In this document: positions 3,202-22,677 of the stretch, piece after piece
How positions within the stretch are numbered: position 1 is the stretch's first letter
Layout: each line of letters begins with the position of its first letter
Position numbers and translations under genes: made by a program
Notes under the pieces: generated by a model
Seen by the model: only the letters and a program-made list of their open reading frames with translations
What the model was told of the DNA's origin: nothing
The model's database searches: none
Source of the DNA: a virus
Reading direction: 5' to 3' (one strand)
DNA length: 26,625 bases
IMG/VR virus record: IMGVR_UViG_3300020437_000915
Span: 1-26,625 of that record

Positions 3202-3388
3202 TATTAGGACGTTTTTAAGTAGGGCACCAAGGGTATGGATGCGAAACTTATTTCCAGTAATCCCTTACTACTGGATAAAAGACGAAGTATTATAGTGCCT
3301 ATAGGTCTTGGTTTGAGAGCACTTGTAGCAAGGGTTACGATACTTTCGAGTCCTTCCTAAAAAAATGGTGAGGATTTCCTCACTAAGT
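3202..3388 (-). promoter_or_regulatory. Long structured psbA 5' leader
   Basis: About 185 nt lie between the predicted transcription start and the psbA ATG. On the minus strand the leader holds the hairpin at 3383-3359, a CTTG-CTA-CAAG mini-stem near 3333-3323, a TATAAT box at 3294-3289 that could be a second promoter (its -35 is poor), and a CCAGTA/TACTGG stem with a 9-nt loop at 3274-3254. There is no coding ORF here. The structure is seen; a regulatory role is inferred. Confidence 0.45.
3359..3383 (-). terminator. Hairpin with U-tract: terminator or 5'-end stem-loop of the psbA mRNA
   Basis: On the minus strand a GTGAGG/CCTCAC stem (6 bp, 4-nt loop) is followed by CA and seven T residues. 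It lies 58 nt past the end of the upstream hli/peroxiredoxin operon, which it could terminate. It also begins about 4 nt after the predicted start from the promoter at 3394-3422, so it would form the extreme 5' end of the psbA mRNA. Confidence 0.6.
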
Positions 3389-5410: not shown

Positions 5411-5480
5411 CTTTTTATGTCAGGATTATCAAATGTAAAAGTACCTATATATCAATAGGGAAATAAGAGTAAAAATTCCA

Positions 5481-5981
5481 ATGAAAAAATTATTGCCCGT
5501 TATCATGCTTTTGTTATCTGCTGGCACTGCCCACGCAGGTGGTCTTGTGACTAAACATGCATCCAGTGTGCAACTTACCGTGGACGCAGCACGTACAACT
5601 GCATCAAGAGTTGGGAATAGTTACGCTATTTCAGGAACTAACGTTACAACAACAGATGGTACTACTTCAGGTGTACTGAGTAGTGGTACTATTGCTTCTG
5701 GTGTTTACGGACCAGGTACTATCAAAGCTACTCAGACAAGTGCAACTAGTGGGGACAATTTCTCATTTAGTACTTCATTCACTCAAGGGGACGCTTTAAT
5801 AACAACTGCTCCTACTGTAGGTGCTGTTAGTGCATTCAGTTCACAGACTTCTTATGCTGCTGGTTCTGCTGGTGATCTTGCTGGTACTGTTGGACAAGAT
5901 GGCGCGGTCGCAGTAACAGCTGGTGGAGCTGGTACCGTGGCTACAGGACAATTCGTAACGGAAATCACAGTAATAGACTGA
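5481..5981 (+). CDS. Exported Ser/Thr/Gly/Ala-rich protein of unknown function
   Basis: 166 residues with a clear Sec signal peptide (MKKLLPVIMLLLSAGTAHA, cleavage after residue 19). The mature part is almost entirely small and polar residues, with many Thr, Ser, Gly and Ala, few charges, no cysteine, and short repeated phrases such as TTDGTTSG and GTIASG, as in beta-rich surface or fibre proteins. First of three plus-strand genes, with stop TGA-TAA followed 3 nt later by the next ATG. No convincing promoter is seen; an imperfect CTATATATC box lies near 5443-5452. Function unknown. Confidence 0.85.
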   Translation: MKKLLPVIMLLLSAGTAHAGGLVTKHASSVQLTVDAARTTASRVGNSYAISGTNVTTTDGTTSGVLSSGTIASGVYGPGTIKATQTSATSGDNFSFSTSFTQGDALITTAPTVGAVSAFSSQTSYAAGSAGDLAGTVGQDGAVAVTAGGAGTVATGQFVTEITVID

Positions 5982-5987
5982 TAAACT

Positions 5988-6419
5988 ATGAGGAATAGAC
6001 TTAAGTTATTCCTTTTAGTTGCTGCTATGGGTGGCATAAACCCAGTCATAGCAGTGCCTGTGGTGCCAAATTTCACCCAAGGCTCGATGACGTCTCATAC
6101 TGAGACTACTTCGACAGTGACTGAGACAATAAATTCGATGGATTATTCTACGGGGTATCAATACACCTCGACGGGATCAGGGGTAACAGCGAGTGGTAAC
6201 TTATCACCTACGACTGGTACTAACAATGTAACTATTAATGGCGTGACATCATCATGGACGGGAATAACAAACAAACCAACCTTCACACAGACAACACCAG
6301 GAGAAGCGTTCCAGTTTACAGAGACGTATTCAGGTCCTGGTTTACAAAATCACACGATCATCCAAAGGGTAACAGAAGTGACAAGCGTAACAGACACTAC
6401 AAGCATCTTCTCGCAATAA
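5988..6419 (+). CDS. Second exported Thr/Ser-rich protein
   Basis: 143 residues beginning MRNRLKLFLLVAAMGGINPV, a signal peptide likely cleaved after IAVP or nearby (about residue 22). The mature part is rich in Thr, Ser and Gly (SHTETTSTVTETINS, SGNLSPTTGTNNVTING), has no cysteine, and ends IIQRVTEVTSVTDTTSIFSQ. It resembles the preceding gene in composition, so both may have a common function or fold. It is in the same reading frame as that gene after a 6-nt gap. The last 166 nt are shared with the third gene if that one starts at 6254. Family not recognised. Confidence 0.82.
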   Translation: MRNRLKLFLLVAAMGGINPVIAVPVVPNFTQGSMTSHTETTSTVTETINSMDYSTGYQYTSTGSGVTASGNLSPTTGTNNVTINGVTSSWTGITNKPTFTQTTPGEAFQFTETYSGPGLQNHTIIQRVTEVTSVTDTTSIFSQ

Positions 6420-7114
6420 GTGGAATCTGTCTTAGTCTTCATCCTACTAATGCTTTTGCTGAGGGCATTGGCGGGGTAAGTGCAACTGCATCGCCGATCG
6501 CGAATAGTTCTGGCTCAGTGACCAACCAAGCTATACAAGTTTTACAAGGACCGTATATAACAAACACATATGGTGGTGGCATTCAGTGTCAAGGACCCAC
6601 CAGAAATTTTACGCCATTCCTCACAGGGACTGCTTCATGGACAAAACCGTACGAGGGATATTATGATTCGCCAGTGTACGACATGCGTGACTTAGATGAT
6701 GATGGTGCACCAGATAATCCAGGTGACATCCTCTATCATGTTCCCACAAGAACTGGACAGAAAGATAATTATAGTTTAAGTGCAGGTTTCTCCATGACAT
6801 GGAGTACACCATTAGATAAAGAACTACAGCAGCAATGTAAAGATGCAGCTGCTGCAAACATAGCATATATGCTACAAAACACTGCTAATAAAAGATTAGA
6901 CTTTGAGATAGCCAGATTGAAAAATTGTGGAAGTTTGATGAAAGAGGGTATCATGTTCCATCCAAAGTCTCCTTATTATAGTGTATGTGCTGACGTTGTT
7001 GTACAGAATGTAAATAATATAGCTCCACATGCACATAGCATCCCTAAGATTACTCCTAAGGTTAGTAATGATGCTAGTGTTTTAAAAGAAGTATCAATAG
7101 GATACGGTAAATAA
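6254..7114 (+). CDS. Third exported protein, four cysteines in the mature part; start uncertain
   Basis: 286 residues from the only usual in-frame start, ATG at 6254. A signal-peptide-like stretch (KHLLAISGICLSLHPTNAFA, predicted cut before EGIGG) begins only at about residue 49, yet no ATG, GTG or TTG lies in frame between 6254 and it. The real start may be a rare codon, or the product may be joined to the preceding frame. The mature part contains TNTYGGGIQCQGPTRNF, an Asp-rich segment DLDDDGAPDNPGD (calcium-loop-like) and a helical C-terminal half with cysteines in QQQCKDAAA, LKNCGS and YSVCADV. It ends 0 nt from the next, convergent gene. Function unknown. Confidence 0.7.
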   Translation: MDGNNKQTNLHTDNTRRSVPVYRDVFRSWFTKSHDHPKGNRSDKRNRHYKHLLAISGICLSLHPTNAFAEGIGGVSATASPIANSSGSVTNQAIQVLQGPYITNTYGGGIQCQGPTRNFTPFLTGTASWTKPYEGYYDSPVYDMRDLDDDGAPDNPGDILYHVPTRTGQKDNYSLSAGFSMTWSTPLDKELQQQCKDAAAANIAYMLQNTANKRLDFEIARLKNCGSLMKEGIMFHPKSPYYSVCADVVVQNVNNIAPHAHSIPKITPKVSNDASVLKEVSIGYGK

Positions 7115-7846
7115 TTATTTCTTTATAGGTGGCAAACCTTTCTTTGCACGATATTCATTAGTTTTTATTTCTGAACGGGTAGGTGGAGTAATCTTCTTAC
7201 CCAATTTTTTTTGTACAGTTGTAGTAAGTTTTTTGATAATTGGTTTTATAAGTCTTAATAGTAATGGTGTTGCTGCAGCTCCTGCTGTTGCTACCACTGC
7301 TATAGCCACTGTAGTCGTTGCTTGATTTATAGAAGGTAAAAATTTCTCGGCTGGTGTGGTAGGTTCATACAACGTTATACAGGTTTTACCATCTGTACTT
7401 AGTTCATGACCAGTCACTCTCTCATCACCTGACTGTGTTAAGTCACCAACTCTTAAGTTGGCAGGACCTGGACAAGGTACTTCTCCTCCAAGATCACCAG
7501 TAGGGGGAACCTCAGGTGGTTCAACCTCTGGTGGTGGTTCAACTTGTGGTGGTGGAACATCTCTTTGTATTACTAATTGCTCTGGTGTATAGTCCATCGC
7601 ATCATAAGATGGATACTGACCATCACAAAAAGTAACAGTCCCTTCAGGATCTTCCTTAGGAAGAGAGGGACTTTTACCTTTATCTTCTGGGTGTGCTTCC
7701 ACACAACCTGGCATATCAACTATTGGACTCCCAATGTTTACTGTCACGGGTGGTGCCCATGGAACTAATGGAGTACTAACATTAGGATTCACAATAGGGA
7801 TCTCAGGTACACTGACACCTCTAATATTAATCTCTTCTATTTCCAT
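7115..7846 (-). CDS. Proline-rich protein with C-terminal membrane helix
   Basis: 243 residues. The N-terminal 170 are rich in Pro, Val and Glu, with a proline repeat at about residues 98-115 (PPPQVEPPPEVEPPEVPP) and five cysteines (at about 48, 74, 125, 156 and none in the tail). A hydrophobic helix (about 177-200) is followed by a basic tail (KPIIKKLTTTVQKKLGKKI). This suggests a tail-anchored protein with an extended stalk. The start overlaps the upstream gene's stop (TAATG). Family not recognised. It is the last gene of the run behind the late box at 9268. Confidence 0.75.
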   Translation of the reverse strand: MEIEEINIRGVSVPEIPIVNPNVSTPLVPWAPPVTVNIGSPIVDMPGCVEAHPEDKGKSPSLPKEDPEGTVTFCDGQYPSYDAMDYTPEQLVIQRDVPPPQVEPPPEVEPPEVPPTGDLGGEVPCPGPANLRVGDLTQSGDERVTGHELSTDGKTCITLYEPTTPAEKFLPSINQATTTVAIAVVATAGAAATPLLLRLIKPIIKKLTTTVQKKLGKKITPPTRSEIKTNEYRAKKGLPPIKK

Positions 7847-8454
7847 TAACAGTTTTTATTCAAGTCCTCCGCCATATTTCCACCTATATCAGCTCCCTGA
7901 TTACCACCAAACATTGCCACCCAACCAGCAGCGACCCAACCAACAAAGGGGATACTACTGAGAGAAGGAGCAGCAGCCGCACCAATGCTTGTACCAACAA
8001 GACGACCTGTACCTTCTGCTGATCCGATTGCTTTGATACATGCTTCGCTTTTTCGGGCAGCAGTTATCTCCGCAGCTTGTCCAGCAGTCAAACCAGGTTG
8101 CATATCAATCCAAGATCTATGATTTGATACAGGACCTCCTTGGTTGATCTGACCATCCATGAAGTATTCTTCTACTACCTTAGTAGTTTCATTTGCAAGA
8201 CCTAAGAAACCACCTTTCTCTTTGATATCCTTAGTGATATATGCTGTCTTAGGATCATTAGCAGTATAACTTAACTTATATCCTTCCTTATCTGCCTGTA
8301 CAACATAAGATGTGTATGGTGTTACTGGGATGTCTAACTTAGGTAACTTACTTTCAGTTTTTCTACTAGCAATATATCCTATCATTCCCAGATGAGATAC
8401 TGCAAATAAACTACCAACCACTCCAATTGATATCCATTTGATATCTAATTTCAT
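7846..8454 (-). CDS. Membrane-anchored protein with Gly-rich hydrophobic C-terminus
   Basis: 202 residues. An N-terminal hydrophobic helix (about residues 8-29, WISIGVVGSLFAVSHLGMIG) is followed by a soluble domain and then by a Gly/Ala-rich hydrophobic hairpin (about 152-190: GTSIGAAAAPSLSS, PFVGWVAAGWVAMFGG), reminiscent of glycine-zipper or pore-forming segments. An AGGAGG ribosome binding site stands just ahead of the ATG. One possibility is a membrane-inserting phage protein; nothing ties it to a named family. Confidence 0.75.
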   Translation of the reverse strand: MKLDIKWISIGVVGSLFAVSHLGMIGYIASRKTESKLPKLDIPVTPYTSYVVQADKEGYKLSYTANDPKTAYITKDIKEKGGFLGLANETTKVVEEYFMDGQINQGGPVSNHRSWIDMQPGLTAGQAAEITAARKSEACIKAIGSAEGTGRLVGTSIGAAAAPSLSSIPFVGWVAAGWVAMFGGNQGADIGGNMAEDLNKNC

Positions 8455-8463: not shown

Positions 8464-8676
8464 CTAGAATGGTGCTACTGGTAAAGCAGGACCAGTGGCA
8501 TCAGGCATCATATCTGGAAGAGATCCAGTAACAGATCCTAACGCTGCTTCTGTAATTTTTGATTTGACGCTATCGATAATCGCGTCCTTGCGTATGAATA
8601 CGTAACCACCAAGACCAACAACGGTGAGAGATACAATACCACTTGCAATAGCGATTCCATTAATCAGTTTTTGCAT
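8464..8676 (-). CDS. 70-residue single-helix membrane protein
   Basis: MQKLINGIAIASGIVSLTVV starts one membrane helix (about residues 5-28), followed by a basic, helical middle (IRKDAIIDSVKSKITEAALG) and a Pro/Ala-rich end (PDMMPDATGPALPVAPF). It overlaps the upstream 39-residue ORF by 17 nt and lies 9 nt before the 202-residue gene. Part of the membrane-protein run; function unknown. Confidence 0.72.
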   Translation of the reverse strand: MQKLINGIAIASGIVSLTVVGLGGYVFIRKDAIIDSVKSKITEAALGSVTGSLPDMMPDATGPALPVAPF

Positions 8677-8862: not shown

Positions 8863-9246
8863 TTAAGAACTAATTTTTACTGCAGGAACTTCTAATTTGA
8901 TAGTTTGAGTTGGTGCTGACTGTGTTGCTTTTTCAATTAGTTTCTCCATATCTGCTTTTGATATGTTTGGAGCATCACTGTTAGAACTCTTCTTCTTACC
9001 CCCAGCTTGGACACCGAAAGTAGCTGTAACTCCCGTAAACACTGAAGCTATAAAGGTCGGATCAATTTTGTCTTGTTCCCATCCAGGTATTGTAACATAA
9101 TTTAATGTCAATATTCCACCAGACCAGATCAAGATACCTAATCGTACAAACGTACTAAGAATAGCAAGTTGCTCTTCCTTGTCGTCCATTGCATCTTTAA
9201 GTTTGCCAATAGGACCTTTAGGTTTCTCAACTTTAGTATCTGCCAT
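8863..9246 (-). CDS. Two-helix membrane protein, holin-like in topology
   Basis: 127 residues: a basic N-terminus (MADTKVEKPKGPIGKLKDAM), two hydrophobic segments (about residues 28-48, LSTFVRLGILIWSGGILTLN, and 66-82, FIASVFTGVTATFGVQA), then a charged tail (GGKKKSS..., KADMEKLIEKA). Small size, two helices and a charged C-terminus are shared with many holins, but I see no family signature, so this is a topology argument only. It is the first gene behind the late-type box at 9268-9275. Confidence 0.8.
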   Translation of the reverse strand: MADTKVEKPKGPIGKLKDAMDDKEEQLAILSTFVRLGILIWSGGILTLNYVTIPGWEQDKIDPTFIASVFTGVTATFGVQAGGKKKSSNSDAPNISKADMEKLIEKATQSAPTQTIKLEVPAVKISS

Positions 9247-9266: not shown

Positions 9267-10142
9267 TTATTTATCAAGTTCAACTTCTTCTGTTTTTGCT
9301 TCTTTACCTACAGGTGTTGGTTCAACATCTGAAGATGGTGCTACCCTTCCTAAGTATGGGTCATAATCAAATAAACCATCTAAAGTTTTTGAATCCAACT
9401 GAGGTGCTTGTTGATCCCAAAAGTTCTTAACACCCATGTAACTACTACGATGGAAAACATCAACATGCTCTGGATGAATAGAAGAACCCAAAGGAATATG
9501 ATAAAGCATCAATGGCATAGCATAAGATTTACCAGGATTATAAAGTAAGTCATCAGCAACTGGACGTGGTTTGACTCCACTATCAAGTTTCCATTTACCA
9601 TTACGTCTTTCATGAAAACGCATGAGTTTCTCTGCATGGGATCTACGAATAGCATAACAGGCAGTAGAGAAATCATTTACAAATCTTTCATGAAGTCTTG
9701 CATGAATAGTTGTAGTACTAATAATTGCCATCTGGAAAATGTCCCAGTCATAAGGTAACTTAGATATAACATGTTTCCAATTAAATCTCCAAGATTTTAC
9801 AATACTCATATCACAATCATCTTCCATCATGATTGCATACTCACTATCAGATGTTTCTAACCAAGTCTTGATTGCCTTAAGGTGAGAAGTAACACATCCA
9901 ATTTCACCAGAGGTCATCATCTCAGGATACCTACCAGCAAGTACATCACTAAGGTCATCATCTCTACCATCATATGCAGAAATTCTGGTTACGTCAGTGA
10001 GTTCCCATTCTTTAAATTGAGATTGCATGTATTCCCATCTCTCTGGTTGACCATCAAGATTGATACAGTAGACAGGACCAAATCCTCTTAGTTTTTCTAC
10101 TGCTTTATTTTTAATTACTGGTGGTGGTAGTTCTTGAAACAT
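9267..10142 (-). CDS. Glycosyltransferase family 25 (LPS-type)
   Basis: 291 residues. The GT25 marks are CINLDGQPERWEYM (about residues 26-40), SGEIGCVTSHLKAI (78-91) and MMEDDCDMS (105-113), the last holding the metal- and nucleotide-binding acidic residues. GT25 enzymes (for example Lex2B or LpsA types) add galactose or glucose to bacterial lipo-oligosaccharide. There is no signal peptide, so it acts in the cytoplasm. Its start lies 32 nt inside the upstream glycosyltransferase. It is the last gene of the glycan cluster; the acidic C-terminus (KEAKTEEVELDK) looks disordered. Acceptor and donor sugar cannot be read from sequence. Confidence 0.9.
   Translation of the reverse strand: MFQELPPPVIKNKAVEKLRGFGPVYCINLDGQPERWEYMQSQFKEWELTDVTRISAYDGRDDDLSDVLAGRYPEMMTSGEIGCVTSHLKAIKTWLETSDSEYAIMMEDDCDMSIVKSWRFNWKHVISKLPYDWDIFQMAIISTTTIHARLHERFVNDFSTACYAIRRSHAEKLMRFHERRNGKWKLDSGVKPRPVADDLLYNPGKSYAMPLMLYHIPLGSSIHPEHVDVFHRSSYMGVKNFWDQQAPQLDSKTLDGLFDYDPYLGRVAPSSDVEPTPVGKEAKTEEVELDK
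9268..9275 (-). promoter_or_regulatory. Late-type promoter box for the membrane-protein run
   Basis: The minus strand reads GATAAATA, matching the NATAAATA late form, 21 nt before the ATG at 9246 and overlapping the end of the GT25 gene. No sigma70 -35 box is found at the right distance, so expression late in infection is the likely reading. Confidence 0.5.
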
Positions 10143-10938
10143 AGTATGGAAGATTAGTAATGTAGTCTTTTAGTTGGTGTTTATCAAATCTTTGGGTCTT
10201 TTCCCATTCCTTATTATTATGATCCATGTGTGGGTTATTGAACCAAGAGTTTTCAGTTCGGGAATGTTCTAAGTGGTATACTGTATTACCACACCTCTGT
10301 ACATTATACCCTAACTTTTTGAATCTGTGGTATCTTTCAACATCTTCTGGTGCATATGCCCTGAAGTTTTCATTCTCCATGCCACCCTCAATGTAAGACT
10401 TAGTATTAAAGAATTGACAAAATCCATATTGTGCGTCATAAGGAGTAGATACATCGATCAAGGTTCTGAAATCGAAATTATTATTTAAGAAATTAGAGAC
10501 GACTTCATCGGTTGCGTTTACTCTTTGTTGAGCAGTTCCTCTTGCATATGGATACACAAGATCAGCACCTTCCCTAATTAATTTATATGCTTCTTTATAG
10601 GAGGTTTTAGGAAGTAAAATATCTGTATCATAATTTACAACAACAGAAGTCTCTACCTCCATCAACATATCATTGAGAACCTTTTGTCTATGAAACAATG
10701 GTTCATCAGTTTGAATAAAGGAATGATGAATATTAAAAATATCACCCTCACAATATTCTTCAATTTGTGGAAGAGCTGAAGTAAAAAAGATAGATTCTTC
10801 ATCATGCTCATGTATAATAAAGTTTGTATCAAATATTGTGTTTAGATAGCATAAAGATGTAATGACATTCCTAAGTCTGTCATCAGATTCAATCCTTACA
10901 GGAATAATAAAAGTTACATCTTTTAAATTATCTTTCAT
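10111..10938 (-). CDS. GT2-like glycosyltransferase (GT-A fold)
   Basis: 275 residues from the ATG at 10938 (MKDNLKDVTFIIPVRIES). Upstream in-frame ATGs at 10950 and 10971 would add 4 or 11 residues; the chosen one puts the first beta strand (VTFIIPVR) in the usual place. VVNYDTDILLP carries the DxD metal site; GFCQFFNTKSYIEGGMENEN and YAPEDVERYHRFKKLGY match the acceptor side of chondroitin-polymerase or galactosyltransferase-type GT-A domains. Soluble cytoplasmic enzyme of the glycan cluster; sugar specificity unknown. Confidence 0.82.
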   Translation of the reverse strand: MKDNLKDVTFIIPVRIESDDRLRNVITSLCYLNTIFDTNFIIHEHDEESIFFTSALPQIEEYCEGDIFNIHHSFIQTDEPLFHRQKVLNDMLMEVETSVVVNYDTDILLPKTSYKEAYKLIREGADLVYPYARGTAQQRVNATDEVVSNFLNNNFDFRTLIDVSTPYDAQYGFCQFFNTKSYIEGGMENENFRAYAPEDVERYHRFKKLGYNVQRCGNTVYHLEHSRTENSWFNNPHMDHNNKEWEKTQRFDKHQLKDYITNLPYYVSRTTTTSN

Positions 10939-11665
10939 CTGGTTTACCATACTTATGCCAAAGGTATTCAATTTCTTCTTTATTAATTAACCAAGAAGTT
11001 CCATCCTCTGGATTTGAAAACTGACCATCATATTTTGTATTAGCACTTACTCTATCATCATGCTCTCTTATAGAAACAATAGTCTTATCAATAATCTTTG
11101 GTAAACCAAACGAAGAATAAAGACGTTGGTAGAAATCAGTGTCCATAAACAAGTCTACATTATCATCAAAGAATTCAGTAATTTCTGTTCTGAATGTAAT
11201 GACAGATGGATTACCAATCAGGTTGTTTCCTTCAAGTTGAAACTTTGCCCATTTAGGTGTCCTCTCTCTAAAGTATTCTTTAGTATTCTTAGTGTGGTTG
11301 TAACCACATGCTGCCCATTTTGATCCATCTGACATGGCATTGACAATAGTTTCTAGAGCAAGATTAGAATAGAAGAAATCATCCATAAACATAATCTTAG
11401 TGATATCTCCTGAAGCAAGTGATAATGCTACGTTGATGTTAGGAGAGATTCTACCTCTTCCATAGAAGTTGCGAACATATCTAATCTCAATGGCATCAGA
11501 GTATGCCTCACATACAGTCATAATATCATTGTTTTTACTATGATCAGATACAATGACTTCAAAATCTTGATAGGACTGACCTTTAATTGTTCCTAACAAT
11601 TCATTTAAATATTCATGTCCGTGTCCACCTGCCTCATGGGTAGGAATACAAATAGAAACTCTCAT
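10928..11665 (-). CDS. Glycosyltransferase family 2
   Basis: 245 residues from the ATG at 11665, which overlaps the stop of the GT11-like gene (ATGA); another in-frame ATG at 11677 would add MDKI. MRVSICIPTHEAGGHGHEYL opens the GT-A fold, FEVIVSDHSKNND follows, and IMFMDDFF supplies the acidic DxD-like site. These inverting enzymes transfer a sugar from a nucleotide donor in the cytoplasm. The C-terminus ends in a charged helix (EIEYLWHKYGKPDER). Donor and acceptor cannot be told. Confidence 0.88.
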   Translation of the reverse strand: MRVSICIPTHEAGGHGHEYLNELLGTIKGQSYQDFEVIVSDHSKNNDIMTVCEAYSDAIEIRYVRNFYGRGRISPNINVALSLASGDITKIMFMDDFFYSNLALETIVNAMSDGSKWAACGYNHTKNTKEYFRERTPKWAKFQLEGNNLIGNPSVITFRTEITEFFDDNVDLFMDTDFYQRLYSSFGLPKIIDKTIVSIREHDDRVSANTKYDGQFSNPEDGTSWLINKEEIEYLWHKYGKPDER

Positions 11666-12447
11666 AATTTTATCCAAGTATCGGGTATAATGTCTTGCGT
11701 ATTATTTGCTGCTGTATATCCTTCAGTTCCAAACCATCTATTAGGTGCAATAATCTGTTCACTCTTAGATAAGAAAGCACCCCACCAACTGAAGGAACTA
11801 TTAGCAATGATGTGGTGTGTACACATAGTCATCAAACACATATCAATTAAATTATCACCTGATTCAGAAACCATAAATCTATTACCTGAGAAAAGTTTTT
11901 CTTTCATACACCACTCAGGTTCATCAGAGAAAACAAGTACAGGTATTTTAGCATCAAACTTTGATAGTGCTTTCTCATAATACTCCATTGAACATGGTGG
12001 ATGATCAACTGCCTTCTCAACATAGTCAGTTCTACGAACATGAAGTGAAATAATCTCATCAAAATCTTCCATCATTTCTTTACAAGGTTCAAGAACATCT
12101 TTTTTAAATGTGAAGTCTTGACGTATACTATCTTCAATGTCAGAGAAATACTTATAAGTTTGAAAATAACCAAACAAGTTTACATTGTCTGGGCAGTTAT
12201 CAACATACTCTTGATCATAATGAAACTGTTTCTCTTGATGATATGTACCAGGAATAAATGTTTTTGATTTTAAATTAGGAAGAGTAAATGCTTCAAATAA
12301 TTGATGATCGTGCCACTCATCTTTAAAGGTGCAATCAGGGATAGTAAATTCATATCCATGTTTATTAGCAATACCTCTCAAGGCAGCATACTGAAACATC
12401 TGATTACCAAGTCGTCCATGCCGACCAATATGATTAAAACCGATCAT
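11662..12447 (-). CDS. GT11 family glycosyltransferase (alpha-1,2-fucosyltransferase-like)
   Basis: 261 residues with the full GT11 signature set: GRLGNQMFQYAALRGIANKH (residues 11-30), LHVRRTDYV (135-143, the GDP-sugar-binding HxRRxDY motif), VFSDEPEWC (172-180) and ANSSFSWWGAFLS (215-227). GT11 enzymes move L-fucose from GDP-L-fucose, usually to galactose. No GDP-fucose synthesis gene is in the window, but a GDP-mannose 3,5-epimerase (20584-21714) would yield GDP-L-galactose, which differs from GDP-L-fucose only by a hydroxyl at C6; use of that donor is an inference. All motifs are intact. Confidence 0.93.
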   Translation of the reverse strand: MIGFNHIGRHGRLGNQMFQYAALRGIANKHGYEFTIPDCTFKDEWHDHQLFEAFTLPNLKSKTFIPGTYHQEKQFHYDQEYVDNCPDNVNLFGYFQTYKYFSDIEDSIRQDFTFKKDVLEPCKEMMEDFDEIISLHVRRTDYVEKAVDHPPCSMEYYEKALSKFDAKIPVLVFSDEPEWCMKEKLFSGNRFMVSESGDNLIDMCLMTMCTHHIIANSSFSWWGAFLSKSEQIIAPNRWFGTEGYTAANNTQDIIPDTWIKL

Positions 12448-13313
12448 AAGAATTTCAGGAGATTGTTTACACGATTGATGAAGGTATGGTTTTCTTTAAC
12501 ATAAGTCATTGCTGCCTTCATGTCAACTGTTCTATTTACCTCTGCATTTAAAAGGTTTTCATACAAAGTATGAGGTGTACCACCAAACACAATGTGATCT
12601 CCTAATGCTCTTTTCACCAGTGGAGAATTAGTACCAGTAATTCTACCATAACTAATATTCTTAAACATTCTACACGGAATGTATCCACATTGCAAGTGCC
12701 AATCACTTCTAAAGTCAGGACATAAAAACGAAGATCTAATTAAGTTCCTATTCTCTTCATCAGATGCATTCTGAGTATAAACATCAAACTGAACCTGGTG
12801 CTTTTCATTCATAATATTTGCGAACTCTTGTGCCCACCATGGTCCTTGTTCATAGAGCATTGCAACATAATTTACTTTCTTTCTGGTAGGTACGAATTCA
12901 ACATAATCATCAGTATCAATTTCATCTGGTAGAAGATCAGTTCCCCAACATTGATAAATTGATCTTGTAGATTCATCCCAATAAGTAAGATCGGCAACCT
13001 TCTCATGGATCTCTTCTTGAGGAAGATAGTTACCAAGTTTTATAATATTCTCATATGGAATACCTTGATCAACCAACTCTTGTGTGGGAAGATGATGAGT
13101 AATATATTTACAATCTTTTCTGATTGGCATACCTGCCTTCACAGAATCTTCTACAAAAATTACAGAGTTTGATACGTCTACACTATCTACGTCAGTAGTA
13201 TCAACCCAATGTGTTTCCCAACCAAGTTTCTTGAATGCTCTGTAGTATCCGTTCTGAACGTAACTATGAGTTGAGGTATGAAGTTTATGTGCCCAAATAA
13301 TAACTTTGTTCAT
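12444..13313 (-). CDS. Probable glycosyltransferase, family unassigned
   Basis: 289 residues: MNKVIIWAHKLHTSTHSYVQ, then GYYRAFKKLGWETHWVDTTD, an N-terminal alternation of strand and helix like a GT-B fold. Later blocks include CKYITHHLPTQELVDQGIP, VPTRKKVNYVAMLYEQGPWW and ISYGRITGTNSPLVKRALGD; the last lies where GT-B enzymes bind the donor sugar. I cannot give a CAZy family. It overlaps its neighbours by 4 nt on each side, within a run of glycosyltransferases, which is the main support for its role. Confidence 0.65.
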   Translation of the reverse strand: MNKVIIWAHKLHTSTHSYVQNGYYRAFKKLGWETHWVDTTDVDSVDVSNSVIFVEDSVKAGMPIRKDCKYITHHLPTQELVDQGIPYENIIKLGNYLPQEEIHEKVADLTYWDESTRSIYQCWGTDLLPDEIDTDDYVEFVPTRKKVNYVAMLYEQGPWWAQEFANIMNEKHQVQFDVYTQNASDEENRNLIRSSFLCPDFRSDWHLQCGYIPCRMFKNISYGRITGTNSPLVKRALGDHIVFGGTPHTLYENLLNAEVNRTVDMKAAMTYVKENHTFINRVNNLLKFL

Positions 13314-13990
13314 CGTAATGAAGGGGGTAATGTATAGTGAAATACGAAAGGAGTTAGTCCTTTGTTCTCTGGAAGGTCTCTTTCATATGAGAACCTTGCT
13401 GCAACTTCTACAGGAGCATATTTACATCCTTGTTCTTCATATAGATGTCTGTTATGAACACAGATATTTCCATCTTCATTAAACAAACCAGCGTCCATGT
13501 GCTTATAAAAGTCTCCTTGGTTTACATCCCATGGGATGACAACTTTATTAGGAACATCCATTAGTTTTTTACTGCGGAGAGAAACTCCACCATTTCCAAC
13601 TCTTTGATGATTACCAAAAGGATCGATGTATGCATTCTCAGACCATGCCCATGGTGCACCAATGTAATCATACTCTAAGAACTCATCAGTCCATGCTTCA
13701 GGATTGACAACAAACCCATGATCCTGAATGATCAACATGTGGTTTGTTTCAATGTGCTGTCCAATGTTATAGATCATGTAAAAACTATAATCATCAATAC
13801 TACGAATAGGATAAATCATCTCCTCAACGTTGATCACACTAGGTAGACCTGAGGGGACTTTATCCTTTTCACTGATTAGTTTTACATCACCAAATTTGAT
13901 GTGTTCAGTACTTTCCATAAGGGCAGAGATGTGCCCTTCCATACGCATGTTAGTTAATGCTACTAACGTTACATCTTTTAGATCAAGCAT
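13310..13990 (-). CDS. DUF5672-type glycosyltransferase-like protein
   Basis: 226 residues. QDHGFVVNPEAW (89-100), YDYIGAPWAW (107-116) and RVGNGGVSLRSKKLM (130-144) match the DUF5672 domain, found in many LPS and capsule clusters and thought to be a GT-A type transferase. Short overlaps link it to both neighbours. Probably cytoplasmic; no signal or membrane helix. Substrate unknown. Confidence 0.8.
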   Translation of the reverse strand: MLDLKDVTLVALTNMRMEGHISALMESTEHIKFGDVKLISEKDKVPSGLPSVINVEEMIYPIRSIDDYSFYMIYNIGQHIETNHMLIIQDHGFVVNPEAWTDEFLEYDYIGAPWAWSENAYIDPFGNHQRVGNGGVSLRSKKLMDVPNKVVIPWDVNQGDFYKHMDAGLFNEDGNICVHNRHLYEEQGCKYAPVEVAARFSYERDLPENKGLTPFVFHYTLPPSLR

Positions 13991-14942
13991 AGTATGGACT
14001 CTTCTTCTTATACTCTTGATATTCTACTCTACAATCATAACCTTTGCAAAGGTTACCTTCTCTATCCATATACGTCCAGTTATCAACGATTGAATCATCA
14101 GGTCTCCACCATCCATCAGATTTATTCCAATCAAACCAATATCTAGGAGAGATAACAACATTTGAAACATCATTCAACCAGACTGGCCAAAAACAAAAAG
14201 TAGATGCACTCATAATAATATACTTTGCCTTGTTTAGAATAGAGTAATCAATTCCAATAGGACCACCAGGATACTTATACCAACCAATACTACCCTGTAG
14301 TTCATCTTTCTCTTCATCGATAGCAGATCCAATTACCTCAGCATCAGGAATATACTTCTTTGCAGCACCAGGATCATCAGTAACAACATAGAATTTTAAA
14401 TTATAATTACCAGTAACGTGTCTCATATTATCCATTGCCATAGAATAATATTCTGGAGGAAGCACAGATGCACCAGTTAGATAATCACCACCACGAAATT
14501 GAATAATACAACAGTCATGACAATCGTAATATTCCTGTAAGTGAGAAGGTTTATATTCTAACCACTTTTGAATCTTACTACGATGTTCTCTAATGTATGA
14601 CATCTTCTGCATCGTACCTTCAATTTTAGTATTGTCAGAAACACATAAAAGTCCTGGATCAATAAATCCCATATTCCAACCATTCTTAGGATGAGGAATC
14701 TTAAGTTCTGCATAGTATCTTTCGATGCCTTCAGGTAAAGAAGTAGGAGGTCCACCTTCAGGACCAGATCCACCAATGACTTCTTTACCAAGATCTACAG
14801 GCATAAACTTAGCACCCTTCCAACGTTCTGGACATTGGATACCAAACTCATATCCATTTGCTTCAGCAATTAATCGAGTTACAACATAGTTCCACAATTG
14901 ATTACCGATTCCAGATCCTTTATAAATTTCAGTTGTCAGCAT
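13983..14942 (-). CDS. GT11-like (fucosyltransferase-type) glycosyltransferase, divergent
   Basis: 319 residues. KGSGIGNQLWNYVVTRLIAE (residues 8-27) matches the N-terminal GxGNQxxxY motif; IIQFRGGDYL (146-155) replaces the usual HxRRxDY; FYVVTDDP (184-191) and MSASTFCFWPVWL (244-256) correspond to the later motifs. The changed sugar-nucleotide loop (FRGGDY) suggests a different donor or acceptor from the other GT11-like enzyme at 11662. Overlaps the GT17-like gene by 14 nt. It is a second candidate for use of GDP-L-galactose. Confidence 0.8.
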   Translation of the reverse strand: MLTTEIYKGSGIGNQLWNYVVTRLIAEANGYEFGIQCPERWKGAKFMPVDLGKEVIGGSGPEGGPPTSLPEGIERYYAELKIPHPKNGWNMGFIDPGLLCVSDNTKIEGTMQKMSYIREHRSKIQKWLEYKPSHLQEYYDCHDCCIIQFRGGDYLTGASVLPPEYYSMAMDNMRHVTGNYNLKFYVVTDDPGAAKKYIPDAEVIGSAIDEEKDELQGSIGWYKYPGGPIGIDYSILNKAKYIIMSASTFCFWPVWLNDVSNVVISPRYWFDWNKSDGWWRPDDSIVDNWTYMDREGNLCKGYDCRVEYQEYKKKSPYYA

Positions 14943-15831
14943 AGATAAACTCCTCGTAGAATTCTTGGTTCAATACTAATTCCCTAGGGTACTCTTCGGG
15001 ATCAAAAGGAACTATTTTATAATCATAATAACCTCTTCCAAGAATATCTTTATTGTTTTTAATATTCTCCTCAAGGTTATCTTTCACCATGTCATTATTA
15101 TGTTCTTGGTGACCATAACCCTGTAGTTTCTCCTTGATTTTATCATTACCACCAAGGAAACTAAAGTGCCAACCACAACCATCAATAAGATATTCTTTAA
15201 CATGATCAGGACCTTTACCAGGATTACGACAAGTATTGAATCCACCAAATGCTTTCATATATGCAAGAGTGCAGAACTGAGGACCTCTCCACTTCTCAAC
15301 AGGTTCACCATTTTCATACATCAATCGATTAACATGACACATAAAAAACTTTTGATGACCAGTATACATTGCTTTGTCATCAGTAAACCATTCTTGAATA
15401 TCTGCTAATGCCTCAGGAAGGATAATCTCATCAAGATCACTCTGAATAATAATGTCATCATTACTGGCATGTTCTAAAGGTGATTCAATCAAACAATCTC
15501 TACCATACATTGAACGTTGCCAACGTTCTGGCCAGTTTCTTTTATCTTCTACATCTCTATCAGAATGATAGTCCTGTTTAAAAGTTGACCAATCTAAATT
15601 TCTTTCTCTAATATCAATCTGACGATAGATGATCTTATCCATGTATGGTTCAAGTTCCTTTTCATACTTGGGGATCATCCATTCCCTTTCAACACCACTA
15701 TAAGTAATGGCATTCTCATTGATACAGAAATGATCTACATGATCATAATGAGTTTTAAGTCTTAGAAGTAAGAGTTTGATTGGTTCATGAGATAAATTAA
15801 AACAATCAAATACTTTACGAATCTTTTTCAT
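14929..15831 (-). CDS. Glycosyltransferase family 17
   Basis: 300 residues. The opening KVFDCFNLSHEPIKLLLLRL (residues 6-25), the segment HVDHFCINEN (31-40), IIQSDLDEIILPEAL (128-142, with the metal-binding DxDE) and GWHFSFLGG match GT17. The eukaryotic founder of GT17 (MGAT3) adds a bisecting beta-1,4-GlcNAc; bacterial and viral members are largely uncharacterised. No membrane anchor is present, unlike the Golgi enzymes. Its ATG overlaps the preceding small gene's stop. Confidence 0.9.
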   Translation of the reverse strand: MKKIRKVFDCFNLSHEPIKLLLLRLKTHYDHVDHFCINENAITYSGVEREWMIPKYEKELEPYMDKIIYRQIDIRERNLDWSTFKQDYHSDRDVEDKRNWPERWQRSMYGRDCLIESPLEHASNDDIIIQSDLDEIILPEALADIQEWFTDDKAMYTGHQKFFMCHVNRLMYENGEPVEKWRGPQFCTLAYMKAFGGFNTCRNPGKGPDHVKEYLIDGCGWHFSFLGGNDKIKEKLQGYGHQEHNNDMVKDNLEENIKNNKDILGRGYYDYKIVPFDPEEYPRELVLNQEFYEEFIYADN

Positions 15832-16010
15832 TCTTCAACACTCTCCAAACTTTCAATTGAATCACATGGTACTTCATGATCACCGATTTTATACCAGTGC
15901 TGTGGAATACCAATACTGTCTTTCCTAACACCTAAGTATGAGAGATCACTGTAGCGATCCTCACGCAAGATTGCCTGTAATCTCCAATGCACTAGTTCAG
16001 ACTTCTTCAT
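15828..16010 (-). CDS. Small unknown protein in the glycan cluster
   Basis: 60 residues opening MKKSELVHWRLQAILREDRY; polar, no membrane helix, acidic C-terminus (DSIESLESVEE). It overlaps GT17 by 4 nt (ATGA) and the upstream small gene by 14 nt. Function unknown; packing in the gene chain supports it as real. Confidence 0.65.
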   Translation of the reverse strand: MKKSELVHWRLQAILREDRYSDLSYLGVRKDSIGIPQHWYKIGDHEVPCDSIESLESVEE

Positions 16011-16167
16011 GTTTCTTCTCCAGTTCTAATTTCAATTGTCTTTCGCATTCATACTCAAGAGTATATACTGCATCTTGCAAGTATTTTTCAAACTGGTTGT
16101 CTTCAAATAAATCATGCAAGTGTGCGATATGTTCAAGTGCAAATACCAGTTTGGTTTTGCTATCCAT
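15997..16167 (-). CDS. Small helical protein in the glycan cluster
   Basis: 56 residues from the ATG at 16167: MDSKTKLVFALEHIAHLHDL, then FEDNQFEKYLQDAVYTLEYE and a charged tail LKLELEKKHEEV. Likely all-helical and able to form a coiled coil. A longer in-frame reading from 16233 would sit inside the methyltransferase gene, so the shorter start (8 nt overlap) is preferred; 16173 is another option. Function unknown. Confidence 0.65.
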   Translation of the reverse strand: MDSKTKLVFALEHIAHLHDLFEDNQFEKYLQDAVYTLEYECERQLKLELEKKHEEV

Positions 16168-16969
16168 TTTCATCTTTTTTGACATAAACAACACGGTTTT
16201 GACTCCACTTCTCTTCAATCTTCTCACTATCATCTACCAAGAAGGTATCATCTAAAGCACGTATACATTCTTTATGTTTGAATACGTTTTCTTCAGAGTC
16301 AATGTTCCTAACAATGTAAGTGTATTGTGATTGCGTGATCACTTTATTCACATACATCAATTGTGTTTTTAGGTCACATTCAGATAGAGAGTTGACTGCG
16401 ATAGTCAAATCAATTCTATCACCAAAGTCATAATTTTCAACTTCAGTGCAAGGTAATGTTATAATTTTACCACTCTTTCCAATTTCTTTCAAGTACCTAT
16501 CTGCCAACTTACATGCTTCGGGAGTATCAATCAAAATATACTTGTCAAAGTTATCTGATAATTCATGAAGCATACAAGCAACACCACCATATCCTCCACC
16601 AATTTCTACGATAGTCTGAACACTAGAGTCTGCAATAAAATTCATAACATCTAACATGTTATATGAATTTTTTAATGTGGCAGAAGAGCACTTACCAAAT
16701 TCAAATTCATACTGTTTAGGTCTGCAATAAGATTCATTTACTAAGAACTTATCTACGTTATCTTTCCAAATACTATAGAGAGGGTGAGTCAAGATTTTAC
16801 TATAGTAATAATCAGCTACTTCTCTAGGTCCTCCCTCAAGAATCTTAGTGTAGTCAGGATCTATTTTGAATGTAGAAAATGCTTCGTCATCTTCTGCTGC
16901 TTTTAGACAGGCAGCATTGTATTTTTCATTGTTGTTGGAGTTGATTGCCCAACCATAATGATTACTCAT
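16160..16969 (-). CDS. Putative sugar O-methyltransferase
   Basis: 269 residues. TIVEIGGGYGGVACMLHEL (about 119-137) is the SAM-binding glycine-rich motif, followed by KYILIDTPEAC with the acidic residue that binds the SAM ribose and by DLTIAVNSLSECD. This layout matches the putative sugar O-methyltransferase group in LPS and capsule clusters. The preceding segment (YSKILTHPLYSIWKDN...) is the usual N-terminal extension. It would methylate a sugar on the finished or growing glycan. Start overlaps the SDR gene by 8 nt. Confidence 0.85.
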   Translation of the reverse strand: MSNHYGWAINSNNNEKYNAACLKAAEDDEAFSTFKIDPDYTKILEGGPREVADYYYSKILTHPLYSIWKDNVDKFLVNESYCRPKQYEFEFGKCSSATLKNSYNMLDVMNFIADSSVQTIVEIGGGYGGVACMLHELSDNFDKYILIDTPEACKLADRYLKEIGKSGKIITLPCTEVENYDFGDRIDLTIAVNSLSECDLKTQLMYVNKVITQSQYTYIVRNIDSEENVFKHKECIRALDDTFLVDDSEKIEEKWSQNRVVYVKKDENG

Positions 16970-17813
16970 AACTTTTTTTCATCTCCGAAAATACTTTTTT
17001 TAATCCTTCTTTAACAGAAGTCTTAGGTGTCCAGAATTGTTTTATATATGGGTCTGGTATATTTCTTGCGTCTTTCTGTACTTCATCTTTTGACTCAGCT
17101 GGTTTAATGATAACATCTCTTCCAATACCAGAAAATAATAATTTAATTTCTTCTGCAATTTCTAAGATAGTTGTATAGTTTCCAGTTGTAATATGTAGTT
17201 CATCATCAGAAGTGAGTTTTTCATAATTTTTCATGACTGACTCCAATGCTTCACAACAGTCTTCTGCATATAAAAATTCTCTTGCCTCTGTACCATCAGT
17301 CATCATATCAATTACACCAGTTTTAAATCCCTTTACAATAAAATCTGTTATAACATGTGCCTTTTCCATATCATGTTCAATACCATATACATTCCAGAAC
17401 TTAACAATCAATCCACCAAGAGACTTGGTGTATAGTTCACCCACTCTTTTCATAACACCATAAGGTGAGTAAGACATATTACTCATTTGAGATGATGCAA
17501 ATAGAAATGGTTTTTTATATTCACTCAGATGTCCAAATACATTTGCCATCATTCGAGTGTTGTTATCTATAAACTTAAAAGTATGTTGATATTTCTTAAG
17601 ATAATGTGATCCACCTACATCGAAAGCAAGAAAGAAAACAAAATCAGAATCCATAATTAAATTTCTTAAAAATGGATTTGGAATATGTGTCATGTCTTCA
17701 TGTTGACCATTTGCAATATCAAACTCTCTTACAAGATATCCTTTCTTTGTAAAATATTGTGTCAAATATGCACCGATTTGTCCTGAAGATCCAAGTATTG
17801 TTATTTTATTCAT
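16962..17813 (-). CDS. NAD-dependent sugar epimerase/dehydratase (extended SDR)
   Basis: 283 residues. ITILGSSGQIGAYL (4-17) is the Rossmann nucleotide-binding loop (GxxGxIG); SSQMSNMSYSPYGVMKRVGE holds the active-site YxxxK pair (Tyr118, Lys122); KFWNVYGIEHD is the substrate-side block. Extended SDRs of this kind epimerise, dehydrate or reduce nucleotide sugars. The substrate cannot be told from sequence. Its ATG overlaps the stop of the upstream oxygenase (ATGA). Confidence 0.87.
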   Translation of the reverse strand: MNKITILGSSGQIGAYLTQYFTKKGYLVREFDIANGQHEDMTHIPNPFLRNLIMDSDFVFFLAFDVGGSHYLKKYQHTFKFIDNNTRMMANVFGHLSEYKKPFLFASSQMSNMSYSPYGVMKRVGELYTKSLGGLIVKFWNVYGIEHDMEKAHVITDFIVKGFKTGVIDMMTDGTEAREFLYAEDCCEALESVMKNYEKLTSDDELHITTGNYTTILEIAEEIKLLFSGIGRDVIIKPAESKDEVQKDARNIPDPYIKQFWTPKTSVKEGLKKVFSEMKKSYE

Positions 17814-18454
17814 TTAGATAACTCCACATTAAATGAAAATGACACATACAATTCATCATTTTTAGGTTGCATTTGAACTCCATGTTCTATTTGAGAAGGA
17901 AAAATTACAATATCACCTTCTTCAATAGTAGGTCTCATTTCTTCCTGATAACAACCATAACCATATAAGGTAGGGTCGTACTCCTGAATATTATATCTTG
18001 GTGCTTCATAGAACATTTTATTAGGATTCATAAATGATGTTGAATTATGCTTGTCTGGATTATAGTTAATATAATAGACACCCGACAGATGTGAAGGAAC
18101 ATGGTTATGTCCCTCTTGATTCTGTCCTGAACCATATGCGTTAAACCATTGTTGAGATACAAAAAAAGAATTAGGGTAAAACTCTGCCATTTTAATTGCT
18201 TCTTGGATATTCTGTGACATGTCCTGTAGTAATTCTCCTATAGGGATCTCAGTTTCCTTAGTATAGTCAACCATACTATCATCAAAGAATGAGGTGTAGC
18301 AATCACAATTCCAAGAAGAACTATTTGACCCATTCTGTTCTTCGTATCTACGTTTTATAATTGGAAAAATCTTTTCTTTCCACTTTGAATGAGTTTGAAA
18401 CTTTCCACGATATAGAAACATCGGGAATAGTGGTAACAAACCATAATTAGTCAT
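17810..18454 (-). CDS. 2OG-Fe(II) oxygenase inside the glycan cluster
   Basis: 214 residues. The metal site is probably in GHNHVPSHLSGVYYIN (His116/His118 region) with the distal histidine in FPSQIEHGVQ (His191) and a C-terminal VSFSFNV strand; this is the pattern of the putative 2OG-Fe(II) oxygenase family TIGR02466. Such enzymes use 2-oxoglutarate and oxygen to hydroxylate a substrate. Within a sugar operon the substrate could be a sugar intermediate or glycoconjugate, but family members act on many substrates. Overlaps the 3-dehydratase gene by 8 nt. Confidence 0.82.
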   Translation of the reverse strand: MTNYGLLPLFPMFLYRGKFQTHSKWKEKIFPIIKRRYEEQNGSNSSSWNCDCYTSFFDDSMVDYTKETEIPIGELLQDMSQNIQEAIKMAEFYPNSFFVSQQWFNAYGSGQNQEGHNHVPSHLSGVYYINYNPDKHNSTSFMNPNKMFYEAPRYNIQEYDPTLYGYGCYQEEMRPTIEEGDIVIFPSQIEHGVQMQPKNDELYVSFSFNVELSK

Positions 18455-19748
18455 TAGGAAACTTCGTAACTACTTGATCAACATACTCAATCATCTCCTC
18501 AGTAATTGTAGGAGAACAACCAACAAAGAATACCTTGTCTAATACTTGATTAGCATTTGGGTATTTGGATGCATCACCAAGGTGACGATAACCAGGATGC
18601 TGAAGAATATTACCTGCAAAATAATTTCTTGTTTGAACTCTATTATCTTCCAGATGTTTAACTAGTGCTGTCTTTTGTTTCTTATCTCTACAAACAATAG
18701 GAACACCAAACCAACTAGTCTCTGATTCTTCTAGTTCATTAATAGTACGGAGACCATCAACTTTCTCAAAGATACCATCTAAGTTTGCTTTGTTTATTCT
18801 ACGTTTAGCATGGATCTCACCAAACTTCTTGAGTTGAACAGAACCAACTGCACCTTGTAGATCAAGTGGTTTTAAATTATAACCTGCAACACCAAACACA
18901 TACTTATGATCTACAATACCAATCTCATCACCTAACCAATTATCAAATCGTTTACCACATACACCATTAGGAAGTTTATTCTGTGAACCAACACACCAAC
19001 AACCACGACCCCACCATGCAAAACTACGGGCAAGATCAACAATATCAGGAATATTAGAAGAAACCATACCACCTTCCATAGTAGAAATGTGGTGAGCAGG
19101 ATAGAAAGAACAAGATGCTGCAACAGAGCATGATGTAAGGAAGTTACCTTTGTAAGTACTTCCAAGAGAATCACAATTATCAGAAATCATCTGAAGATTA
19201 TTTGTCTCACAGATGTCAAGTAACCATTCAAGATCATAAGAGTTACCTAAAACAGGTGAAGAAAATACTGCTCTAGTTCTTTCATTAATTTTAGATGAGA
19301 TCTGGTCTATATCCCAGTTAAGATCTTTCCAATCAATATCAACAAAGACAGGTTTTAAATTGTTTTGAATAATAGGTGCAATCGTAGTTGCAAATCCACA
19401 ACAACATACAATAATCTCATCACCATCTTGCCAATTATAATACTTCTTGAGTGCAGCAAGCATCACAAGATTAGCAGAACTACCAGAGTTTACCATGATG
19501 GACTTATCAAATCCAAACATCTTGGAGAACTCACGTTCAAACTTATTGACTTTCTCACCAGCAGGTAACCACTTACCTTTCAGTATTGCTTCAATAATTG
19601 TAGTTGGTTCTTCATCATCCCAATAAGGACCACTATAATAAACAGTATCTTTTGTAGGATCAAATGATTTCTTATTGGCAAGATATGGGAAGAGGTCTAA
19701 GTCACGTTCCTTAGCCGTAGAAATAAAATTTTTAATCAGATCTTGCAT
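18447..19748 (-). CDS. rfbH: PLP-dependent nucleotide-sugar 3-dehydratase, RfbH/E1 type
   Basis: 433 residues, close to the 437 of RfbH. MVNSGSSANLVML (85-97) and FVDIDWKDLNWDID place it in the DegT/DnrJ/EryC1/StrS aminotransferase fold. In SFYPAHHISTMEGG the usual PLP lysine is replaced by histidine (His220), the hallmark of 3-dehydratases such as RfbH (CDP-6-deoxy-4-hexulose 3-dehydrase) and ColD. The following block WWGRGCWCV...GVCGKRF carries cysteines 250, 252 and 264, in the region of the RfbH [2Fe-2S] cluster; a fourth is not evident. Product would be a 3-deoxy or 3,6-dideoxy sugar nucleotide. Overlaps the next SDR gene by 13 nt. Confidence 0.88.
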   Translation of the reverse strand: MQDLIKNFISTAKERDLDLFPYLANKKSFDPTKDTVYYSGPYWDDEEPTTIIEAILKGKWLPAGEKVNKFEREFSKMFGFDKSIMVNSGSSANLVMLAALKKYYNWQDGDEIIVCCCGFATTIAPIIQNNLKPVFVDIDWKDLNWDIDQISSKINERTRAVFSSPVLGNSYDLEWLLDICETNNLQMISDNCDSLGSTYKGNFLTSCSVAASCSFYPAHHISTMEGGMVSSNIPDIVDLARSFAWWGRGCWCVGSQNKLPNGVCGKRFDNWLGDEIGIVDHKYVFGVAGYNLKPLDLQGAVGSVQLKKFGEIHAKRRINKANLDGIFEKVDGLRTINELEESETSWFGVPIVCRDKKQKTALVKHLEDNRVQTRNYFAGNILQHPGYRHLGDASKYPNANQVLDKVFFVGCSPTITEEMIEYVDQVVTKFPND

Positions 19749-21714: not shown

Positions 21715-21737
21715 TGCTCGAAATTACTTATGTTAAT

Positions 21738-21766
21738 AGTATACACAAAAAAAGGGGTCTTGTAAA
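21738..21766 (-). promoter_or_regulatory. Sigma70-type promoter for the glycan cluster
   Basis: The minus strand reads TTTACA (21766-21761), 17 nt, then TATACT (21743-21738). The -35 lies in the loop of the terminator hairpin and the spacer covers its T-run, so the two elements share the same bases. RNA would start near 21731, 17 nt before the GME ATG. Confidence 0.6.
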
Positions 21767-21772
21767 CCCTCC
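21747..21772 (-). terminator. Rho-independent terminator before the glycan cluster
   Basis: On the minus strand GGGTT/GACCC (one U-G pair, 5-nt loop) is flanked by A/G and T/C residues that can extend the stem, and is followed by seven T residues. It lies directly after the stop codon of the 219-residue gene and should end that transcript. Confidence 0.65.
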
Positions 21773-22655: not shown

Positions 22656-22677
22656 TGGTTTGTTTGTTTCTATAATA

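Follow-up and report, generated by a model that had tools for sequence, protein, structure and literature searches.

Two-component spanins (Rz/Rz1) are exported pairs of proteins whose genes overlap or are embedded one in the other and are read in different frames. In T7, the holin gene is flanked by gene 17 and the gene for the small terminase subunit; Rz/Rz1 precede the large terminase gene. Holins of the class II type are small proteins with two membrane segments and charged ends. Cyanophages are also known to code for periplasmic proteins, PstS and PhoA, which are host-derived enzymes or binding proteins. The gene clusters T4-GC 235, 236 and 237 (Sullivan et al. 2010), together with the families PF19847, phrog_564, phrog_650 and phrog_848/phrog_1755, have until now contained only hypothetical proteins with no assigned function. 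The locus described here carries the genes of these three clusters, in the same order and on the same strand as in P-SSM4, S-SM1, Syn9 and P-HM1.

The window, that is the whole stretch of DNA that was analysed, is a virus fragment of 26,625 bases from a T4-like marine cyanophage. Its minus-strand genes include psbA, two hli genes, a transaldolase-like gene and a peroxiredoxin gene (names partly assigned by eye). A PhotoRC-II RNA is located at 3240-3337 on the minus strand, directly upstream of psbA (RF01717, 62.6 bits, gathering threshold 39). Three genes are found on the plus strand. ORF1 (5481-5981) encodes a predicted exported, Ser/Thr/Gly-rich, Cys-free protein matching phrog_564 (E=1e-68). 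ORF2 (5988-6419) encodes a predicted exported, Thr-rich, beta-type protein matching PF19847 (DUF6322, E=1e-40) and phrog_650 (E=3e-66), and ORF3 (6254-7114) a predicted exported protein with four cysteines and a long helix matching phrog_848 (E=2e-140) and phrog_1755. An earlier note on this DNA had described the three genes as the only plus-strand block, and this is borne out, as all other long convincing frames in the ORF list are on the minus strand; the remaining plus-strand frames are short and mostly lie over longer minus-strand ones, judged from the ORF list and not each by homology. The note had also called the genes consecutive and their families unrecognised. They do stand three in a row, but ORF3 overlaps ORF2 by 166 nt in another frame, and the profile matches given above refute the absence of families.

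Membership in T4-GC 235-237, PF19847 and phrog_564, 650 and 848 was established from profile matches over the full proteins together with gene order; by position in the P-SSM4, S-SM1 and P-HM1 records, T4-GC 237, 236 and 235 correspond to ORF1, ORF2 and ORF3, respectively. ORF1 and ORF2 are probably related to each other, judging from profile comparison (hhalign probability 88.5%) and from the match of the ORF1 of phage MED4-184 to phrog_650 (E=5e-4). The three plus-strand genes are real, near-universal in marine T4-like cyanophages, and not orphans. As DNA, the block matched 402 of 50,697 phage records; at the protein level, 402 of these records were matched by ORF2 and 439 by full-length ORF3. 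For scale, the cyanophage-core Hsp20 of S-SM1 found 507 records, and the Hsp20 and ORF2 tallies agreed in containing 66 entries named 'Cyanophage' and 24 named 'Prochlorococcus' each.

All three products begin with a basic stretch followed by a hydrophobic core and a small-x-Ala site. The signal peptides claimed by the earlier note for all three are upheld, the -3/-1 rule being kept in 32 of 32, 23 of 23 and 29 of 29 aligned relatives of ORF1, ORF2 and ORF3, with cleavage sites placed by eye. The A-x-A before the mature part of ORF1 is invariant among its aligned relatives, and the small-x-Ala site of ORF3 is present in all 29 of its relatives. In ORF3 a basic n-region of 49 residues comes before the hydrophobic region of the signal (about 6401-6460), and the mature protein begins with Glu. 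Export to the periplasm or envelope, which the note had raised in proposing the periplasm as a site of action, is thus supported by signals conserved in three families, as far as sequence can indicate. The description of the products as Ser/Thr-rich holds for mature ORF1 (31% Ser+Thr) and ORF2 (38%) but fails for ORF3 (15%), the 27 minus-strand genes used for comparison having 5-17% Ser+Thr and 11-32% charged residues. Two products are indeed nearly free of charge and of cysteine: mature ORF1 and ORF2 contain 8.2% and 7.4% charged residues and no Cys. Mature ORF3 has a normal 17% charged residues and four Cys, all in columns invariant across 29 sequences. The mature parts of ORF2 and ORF3 are strongly conserved in the alignments, and the C-terminal strands are conserved in ORF1 and ORF2. 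As phage-coded periplasmic proteins, the three would resemble PstS and PhoA, which lie near the block in S-SM1; unlike these, they are without a cellular homologue found.

The hydrophobic signal of ORF3 sits at the ORF2 stop junction, and the sole usable earlier start is the ATG at 6254; the end of ORF2 (6254-6419, plus strand, 166 nt) is at the same time the N-terminal extension of ORF3. Starts were compared in 83 loci that had been fetched with ORF3 or were annotated, the window included (L007 and L067 were left out as truncated). The first ORF3 ATG precedes the ORF2 end by 166 nt in 76 of them, by 172 nt in 6 and by 169 nt in 1. Because loci fetched with ORF3 are biased, a second set was fetched by ORF2 alone, and the ATG was found exactly 166 nt before the ORF2 end in 75 of 76 new loci, the ORF3 frame being broken in the exception, L154. 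Ten loci from genome assemblies gave distances of 166 nt (four), 172 nt (two) and 178 nt (two), a TTG at 172 nt (one) and one case without an internal start. The Trp is missing from L092, where the first ATG lies 493 nt upstream, and the ORF3 of L095 starts with TTG.

The 169 loci were reduced to 137 distinct sequences by dropping one (unreadable or with too few codons) and merging duplicates. In these 137, the ORF2 Trp codon that supplies the 'TG' of the ORF3 ATG is invariant. In 134 of the 135 sequences ungapped at this place, A is the last letter of the preceding codon; the exception, AGT, would fit the TTG start of L095. All 49 Ser/Thr codons at this place in the first set end in A, against a background in these genes of 24% TCA among Ser codons and 38% ACA among Thr codons. 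Third-position changes at conserved four-fold columns of ORF2 were counted on a tree built from the rest of ORF3 for 132 of the sequences, with codon columns present in at least 60% of them, and came to 40.6 upstream (14 columns), 15.0 in the ten codons before the ATG (5) and 30.0 in the overlap (17). A ribosome-binding region would be expected to produce just such a quiet stretch. Internal initiation of ORF3 within ORF2 is well supported by these comparisons, and strongly so because the 30 nt up to the ATG (6225-6254, plus strand) are constrained at silent sites. Two Val codons in this stretch are nearly fixed (GTA in 107 of 111 and GTG in 129 of 133); read by eye, the third frame also gains ATG-TAA and TGA from these codons.

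It could be argued that the overlap is incidental: ribosomes reading ORF2 might shift into the ORF3 frame, or ORF3 might begin at an unusual start further downstream, and the frame would be open merely through ORF2 composition. The part of ORF3 encoded in the overlap would agree with this, its amino-acid sequence being little conserved away from M1, R47 and the start of the hydrophobic stretch. Against it, resampling of synonymous ORF2 codons gave an expectation of 2.87 stops per sequence, and none was observed in 53 sequences; the start position, the A before TGG and the silent sites upstream are all fixed as well. The 7,421 overlap codons of the ORF3 frame contain 2 stops, which belong to a single sequence; upstream, this frame has 502 stops among 6,211 codons. 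Incidental overlap is accordingly regarded as very improbable. Frameshift expression as such was set aside because the ATG is fixed. Overlapping genes are annotated in the S-SM1, Syn9 and P-HM1 records, the S-RSM4 record omits ORF3, and the P-SSM4 and P-SSP7 records start it behind most or all of the signal; the second gene has been mis-started or omitted in some records probably because of the overlap.

Four minus-strand genes converge on the block. They encode a Pro-rich protein with a C-terminal membrane segment (7115-7846; phrog_570), a protein with an N-terminal membrane anchor (7846-8454; phrog_605), a small protein with an N-terminal membrane anchor (8464-8676; phrog_568) and a DUF6450 protein with two membrane segments (8863-9246; PF20048, E=2e-34), the membrane segments being judged by eye. 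By position these are T4-GC 234, 219, 414 and 218, respectively. The Pro-rich gene adjoins ORF3 in 150 of 152 loci with enough flank, convergently in 138 of the 150 and on the same strand in 12; as L083 and these 12 loci (P-SSM4, for example) illustrate, one gene of the module can invert. Relatives of the other three were present in 94 of 139 (T4-GC 219), 122 of 137 (T4-GC 414) and 120 of 127 (DUF6450) loci with enough flank. The 7846-8454 protein shows a weak match to a tape-measure family (E=0.005). In DUF6450, two hydrophobic stretches are conserved in 9 aligned sequences (by eye). Adjoining the module on the minus strand (9267-24770) is a long run of sugar genes, probably for surface polysaccharide, of which the first, a family 25 glycosyltransferase, was assigned by profile and the further glycosyltransferase-, epimerase- and aminotransferase-like frames were named by eye.

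A late motif of S-PM2, NATAAATA, is given in a passage of PMC2984593. The region 10-65 nt upstream of ORF1 was searched for gp55-type late promoter motifs in 45 distinct upstream regions. Strict [CA]TAAATA was present in 28 of the 45, vs 1.66 in dinucleotide shuffles, and a wider pattern, chosen post hoc, in all 45 vs 2.34 in shuffles. The window itself carries CTATATA (5445-5451, plus strand), 36 nt upstream of ORF1, which matches the wider post hoc pattern only and not the strict motif. On the minus strand, ATAAATA (9268-9274) stands just upstream of the DUF6450 gene and is one of four strict-motif matches in the 26.6-kb window. The motif is thus found ahead of ORF1 in relatives and, in the window, ahead of the convergent gene for DUF6450; with motifs on both strands, both arms therefore look late. 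Infection time courses have been published (in passages of PMC5082946).

Sequence comparison shows that the core trio DUF6450-ORF2-ORF3 recurs in T7-like cyanophages and in one 38-kb phage, MED4-184, its genes again adjoining one another and with the overlap retained. In P-SSP7 the order is a Pro-rich protein with one membrane segment, DUF6450 (PF20048, E=2e-32), the ORF2 family (phrog_650, E=2e-32) and the ORF3 family (phrog_1755, E=3e-51), flanked by tail-fibre genes and the terminase small subunit; the record annotates the first three genes with '1 transmembrane region', '2 transmembrane regions predicted by TMHMM' and 'possible SignalP', the second of these being the DUF6450 gene. The ORF2-ORF3 pair was also found in P-SSP3, SS120-1, P-RSP2, P-SCSP1q and P-SCSP2, where the ORF2 family was confirmed by profile, and in S-RIP1, S-TIP37 and MED4-184, where it was confirmed by alignment. 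For S-TIP37 a genetic system is available (PMC8776855). The ORF3 ATG precedes the ORF2 stop by 193 nt in S-RIP1 and S-TIP37, 112 nt in SS120-1, 67 nt in P-SSP3 and 56 nt in P-SCSP1q and P-SCSP2. The only upstream ORF3 start is a GTG at 112 nt in P-SSP7 and P-RSP2 and a TTG at 11 nt in MED4-184. In DSL-LC02 a stop falls inside the stretch called open, and 64 nt of the overlap are usable. The genes read in 9515-10a were ORF3 and DUF6450; in this podovirus (L182, 4602-5597) about 120 codons without a stop precede the signal in the ORF3 frame, and almost all of the ORF2 region may thus have a second open frame. MED4-184, whose record does not state a morphotype, also carries ORF1 (phrog_564, E=1e-41) and DUF6450-type proteins in line. 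The T7-like site of the trio is mostly between tail-fibre and terminase genes. This position is not universal, because the trio is inverted in P-RSP2, P-SCSP1q and P-SCSP2, lying on the strand opposite to its neighbours on at least one side. The ORF2-ORF3 overlap and the shared cassette may be taken as firm at the level of sequence.

The distribution of the cassette follows the host group. Mature ORF3 reaches the T7-like cyanophages, with 459 records in all, and in the tallies of 459, 449, 402 and 269 records the organism names were Synechococcus, Prochlorococcus, cyanophage, Tiamatvirus, marine or uncultured; the 269 records matched by the DUF6450 of P-SSP7 were all named Synechococcus, cyanophage, Prochlorococcus, marine or Tiamatvirus. 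Among 151 genomes of the host family, DUF6450 matched 2, and the same 2 matched DUF6322, each pair on one contig and one of the two DUF6322 matches below the family cut-off. The two are consistent with viral sequence in those assemblies. In G068, a genome of the host family, DUF6450 lies next to a weak match to DUF6322 (L185, L187) on one strand in the T7-like arrangement, and this locus is possibly an integrated or captured phage. Cellular homologues of ORF1-3 were not found in a survey made up mainly of two family searches of the 151 host-family genomes, with a contig scan for two peptide patterns.

Searches with the cassette proteins against Pfam, NCBIfam and PHROG profiles found no homology to known holins, endolysins or spanins. 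DUF6450 matched only DUF6450 and PHROGs of unknown function above noise, and no named holin family. In none of the loci read did an endolysin gene adjoin the cassette; only DSL-LC02 has a lysozyme gene in the vicinity, at a distance of about 4 kb. Profile searches of the PDB gave nothing credible (no match for ORF3, best E 0.3 for ORF2 and 0.25 for ORF1). AlphaFold models were poor, with mean pLDDT 53.2 for ORF2 and 51.6 for ORF3 (from 23 and 29 sequences); long strands are predicted in ORF2, and at this pLDDT they are unreadable as a fold. A Foldseek search with this low-confidence ORF3 model gave 16 matches at E <= 0.001 (17-62% identity); the named ones come from cyanophages or uncultured marine phages and served solely to point to P-SSP10.

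ORF2/ORF3 resemble Rz/Rz1 in being a predicted exported pair from overlapping genes in different frames and, in T7-like cyanophages, in belonging to a cassette at the lysis-gene site. Unlike Rz/Rz1, they have no lipobox (mature ORF1 and ORF2 are without Cys and mature ORF3 starts with Glu), no lipoprotein and no sequence relation found, and both members look secreted by signal peptidase I. As for an i-spanin anchor, the small-x-Ala sites of ORF1-3 suggest cleavage, and anchored proteins, judged by eye, are in the convergent arm. DUF6450 resembles class II type holins in its small size, two membrane segments and charged ends, and it is a late-motif gene beside genes for exported proteins; it differs in being without homology to a named holin family, and its holin-like role is putative. 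With the lipobox absent and no named-holin homology, the proteins fall outside the spanin and holin families; they could nevertheless function in a similar way.

Four features go beyond the earlier note: dual coding, the late-promoter motif, the convergent membrane arm and the homologous T7-like cassette. Taken together, they suggest that phages of unrelated types have in common a function late in infection at the host envelope. Action on the host envelope is most likely because a late cassette of membrane and overlapping exported proteins is found in unrelated phages of one host group. Our preferred reading, held with a little less than even confidence, is an envelope cassette that is host-specific, acts late and most likely serves lysis or egress; to much the same degree, we suggest that the plus-strand block is one arm of a two-armed late envelope module present in nearly all T4-like marine cyanophages. 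Lysis or egress is favoured because of the place of the trio in T7-like genomes and the late motif. After late transcription, the exported proteins would gather in the periplasm or outer envelope. DUF6450 would enter the inner membrane and behave like a holin, with ORF2-ORF3 as its counterpart further out, and together these proteins could breach or loosen the picocyanobacterial envelope. The overlap would couple ORF2 and ORF3 synthesis, and the two proteins probably act as a pair. Against lysis, seven genes in two operons are many for this purpose, the T7-like position is not universal, and the models are poor.

The main rival to lysis is surface remodelling or exclusion, in which the exported proteins late in infection coat or alter the outer envelope and block other phages or readsorption of progeny. 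The conserved export signals, the low-charge, Ser/Thr-rich beta-type sequences and the host-restricted distribution over T4-like and T7-like phages would all suit it. The late-promoter motif suits lysis better, as superinfection exclusion usually acts early; exclusion proteins also tend to vary, and mature ORF2 and ORF3 are strongly conserved. We consider this reading unlikely, though the first to be weighed after lysis or egress. Next comes virion association, with the proteins crossing or sitting in a membrane during assembly, or forming part of the particle or injection path. The T7-like site following tail-fibre genes and the weak tape-measure match of the 7846-8454 protein speak for it, and the 13 virion proteins of unknown function of S-SCSM1, mentioned in a passage of PMC9602691, could include these. 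Signal peptides of the cleavable type in all three families speak against it, as does the record of S-SM1, whose virion proteome was measured and where these genes are called 'hypothetical protein' and 'virion structural protein' is used elsewhere; an ordinary virion role, which the earlier note had set as its refuting outcome, is unsupported, and we hold it improbable. The note's own suggestion of surface fibres or amyloid, with ORF1 and ORF2 polymerising outside the cell, is less probable again. Low complexity, the lack of Cys, the long predicted ORF2 strands, the conserved C-terminal strands and the relatedness of ORF1 and ORF2 are in keeping with it; however, no curli, adhesin or beta-solenoid family was matched in PHROG, or in Pfam, NCBIfam or PDB up to E=1, and the ORF2 and ORF3 models are too poor to show a fibre fold.

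Neither the overlap nor the cassette was found described in the open-licence cyanophage literature searched, within the passages of PMC3037559, PMC2984593, PMC5082946, PMC9860041, PMC10575957, PMC9602691, PMC4646655, PMC13002823, PMC2784084 and PMC8776855, which is weak evidence of absence. The open-licence searches covered DUF6322, DUF6450, the PHROG names, cyanomyovirus and cyanopodovirus lysis and overlapping genes, and gave no description of the cassette; nothing usable was obtained on exported or membrane proteins in infected cells, and the word 'holin' was absent from the cyanophage papers searched for it.

Within the preferred reading of a late envelope cassette for lysis or egress, a broader and more tentative proposal can be made: picocyanobacterial phages of any virion type may share a lineage-specific lysis or egress machine, consisting of DUF6450 and a translationally overlapping pair of Sec-exported non-lipoproteins, which would replace the holin and spanin systems known from other phages of Gram-negative bacteria and would have been transferred as one block between T4-like and T7-like phages. 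The overlap is a clean case of dual coding kept across these phages, in which the Trp codon of one exported protein gives the start codon of the next. The opening of Prochlorococcus and Synechococcus cells by cyanophages is a central step in the release of carbon in the ocean, and a cassette common to T4-like and T7-like cyanophages offers named, testable genes for this opening of the cell.
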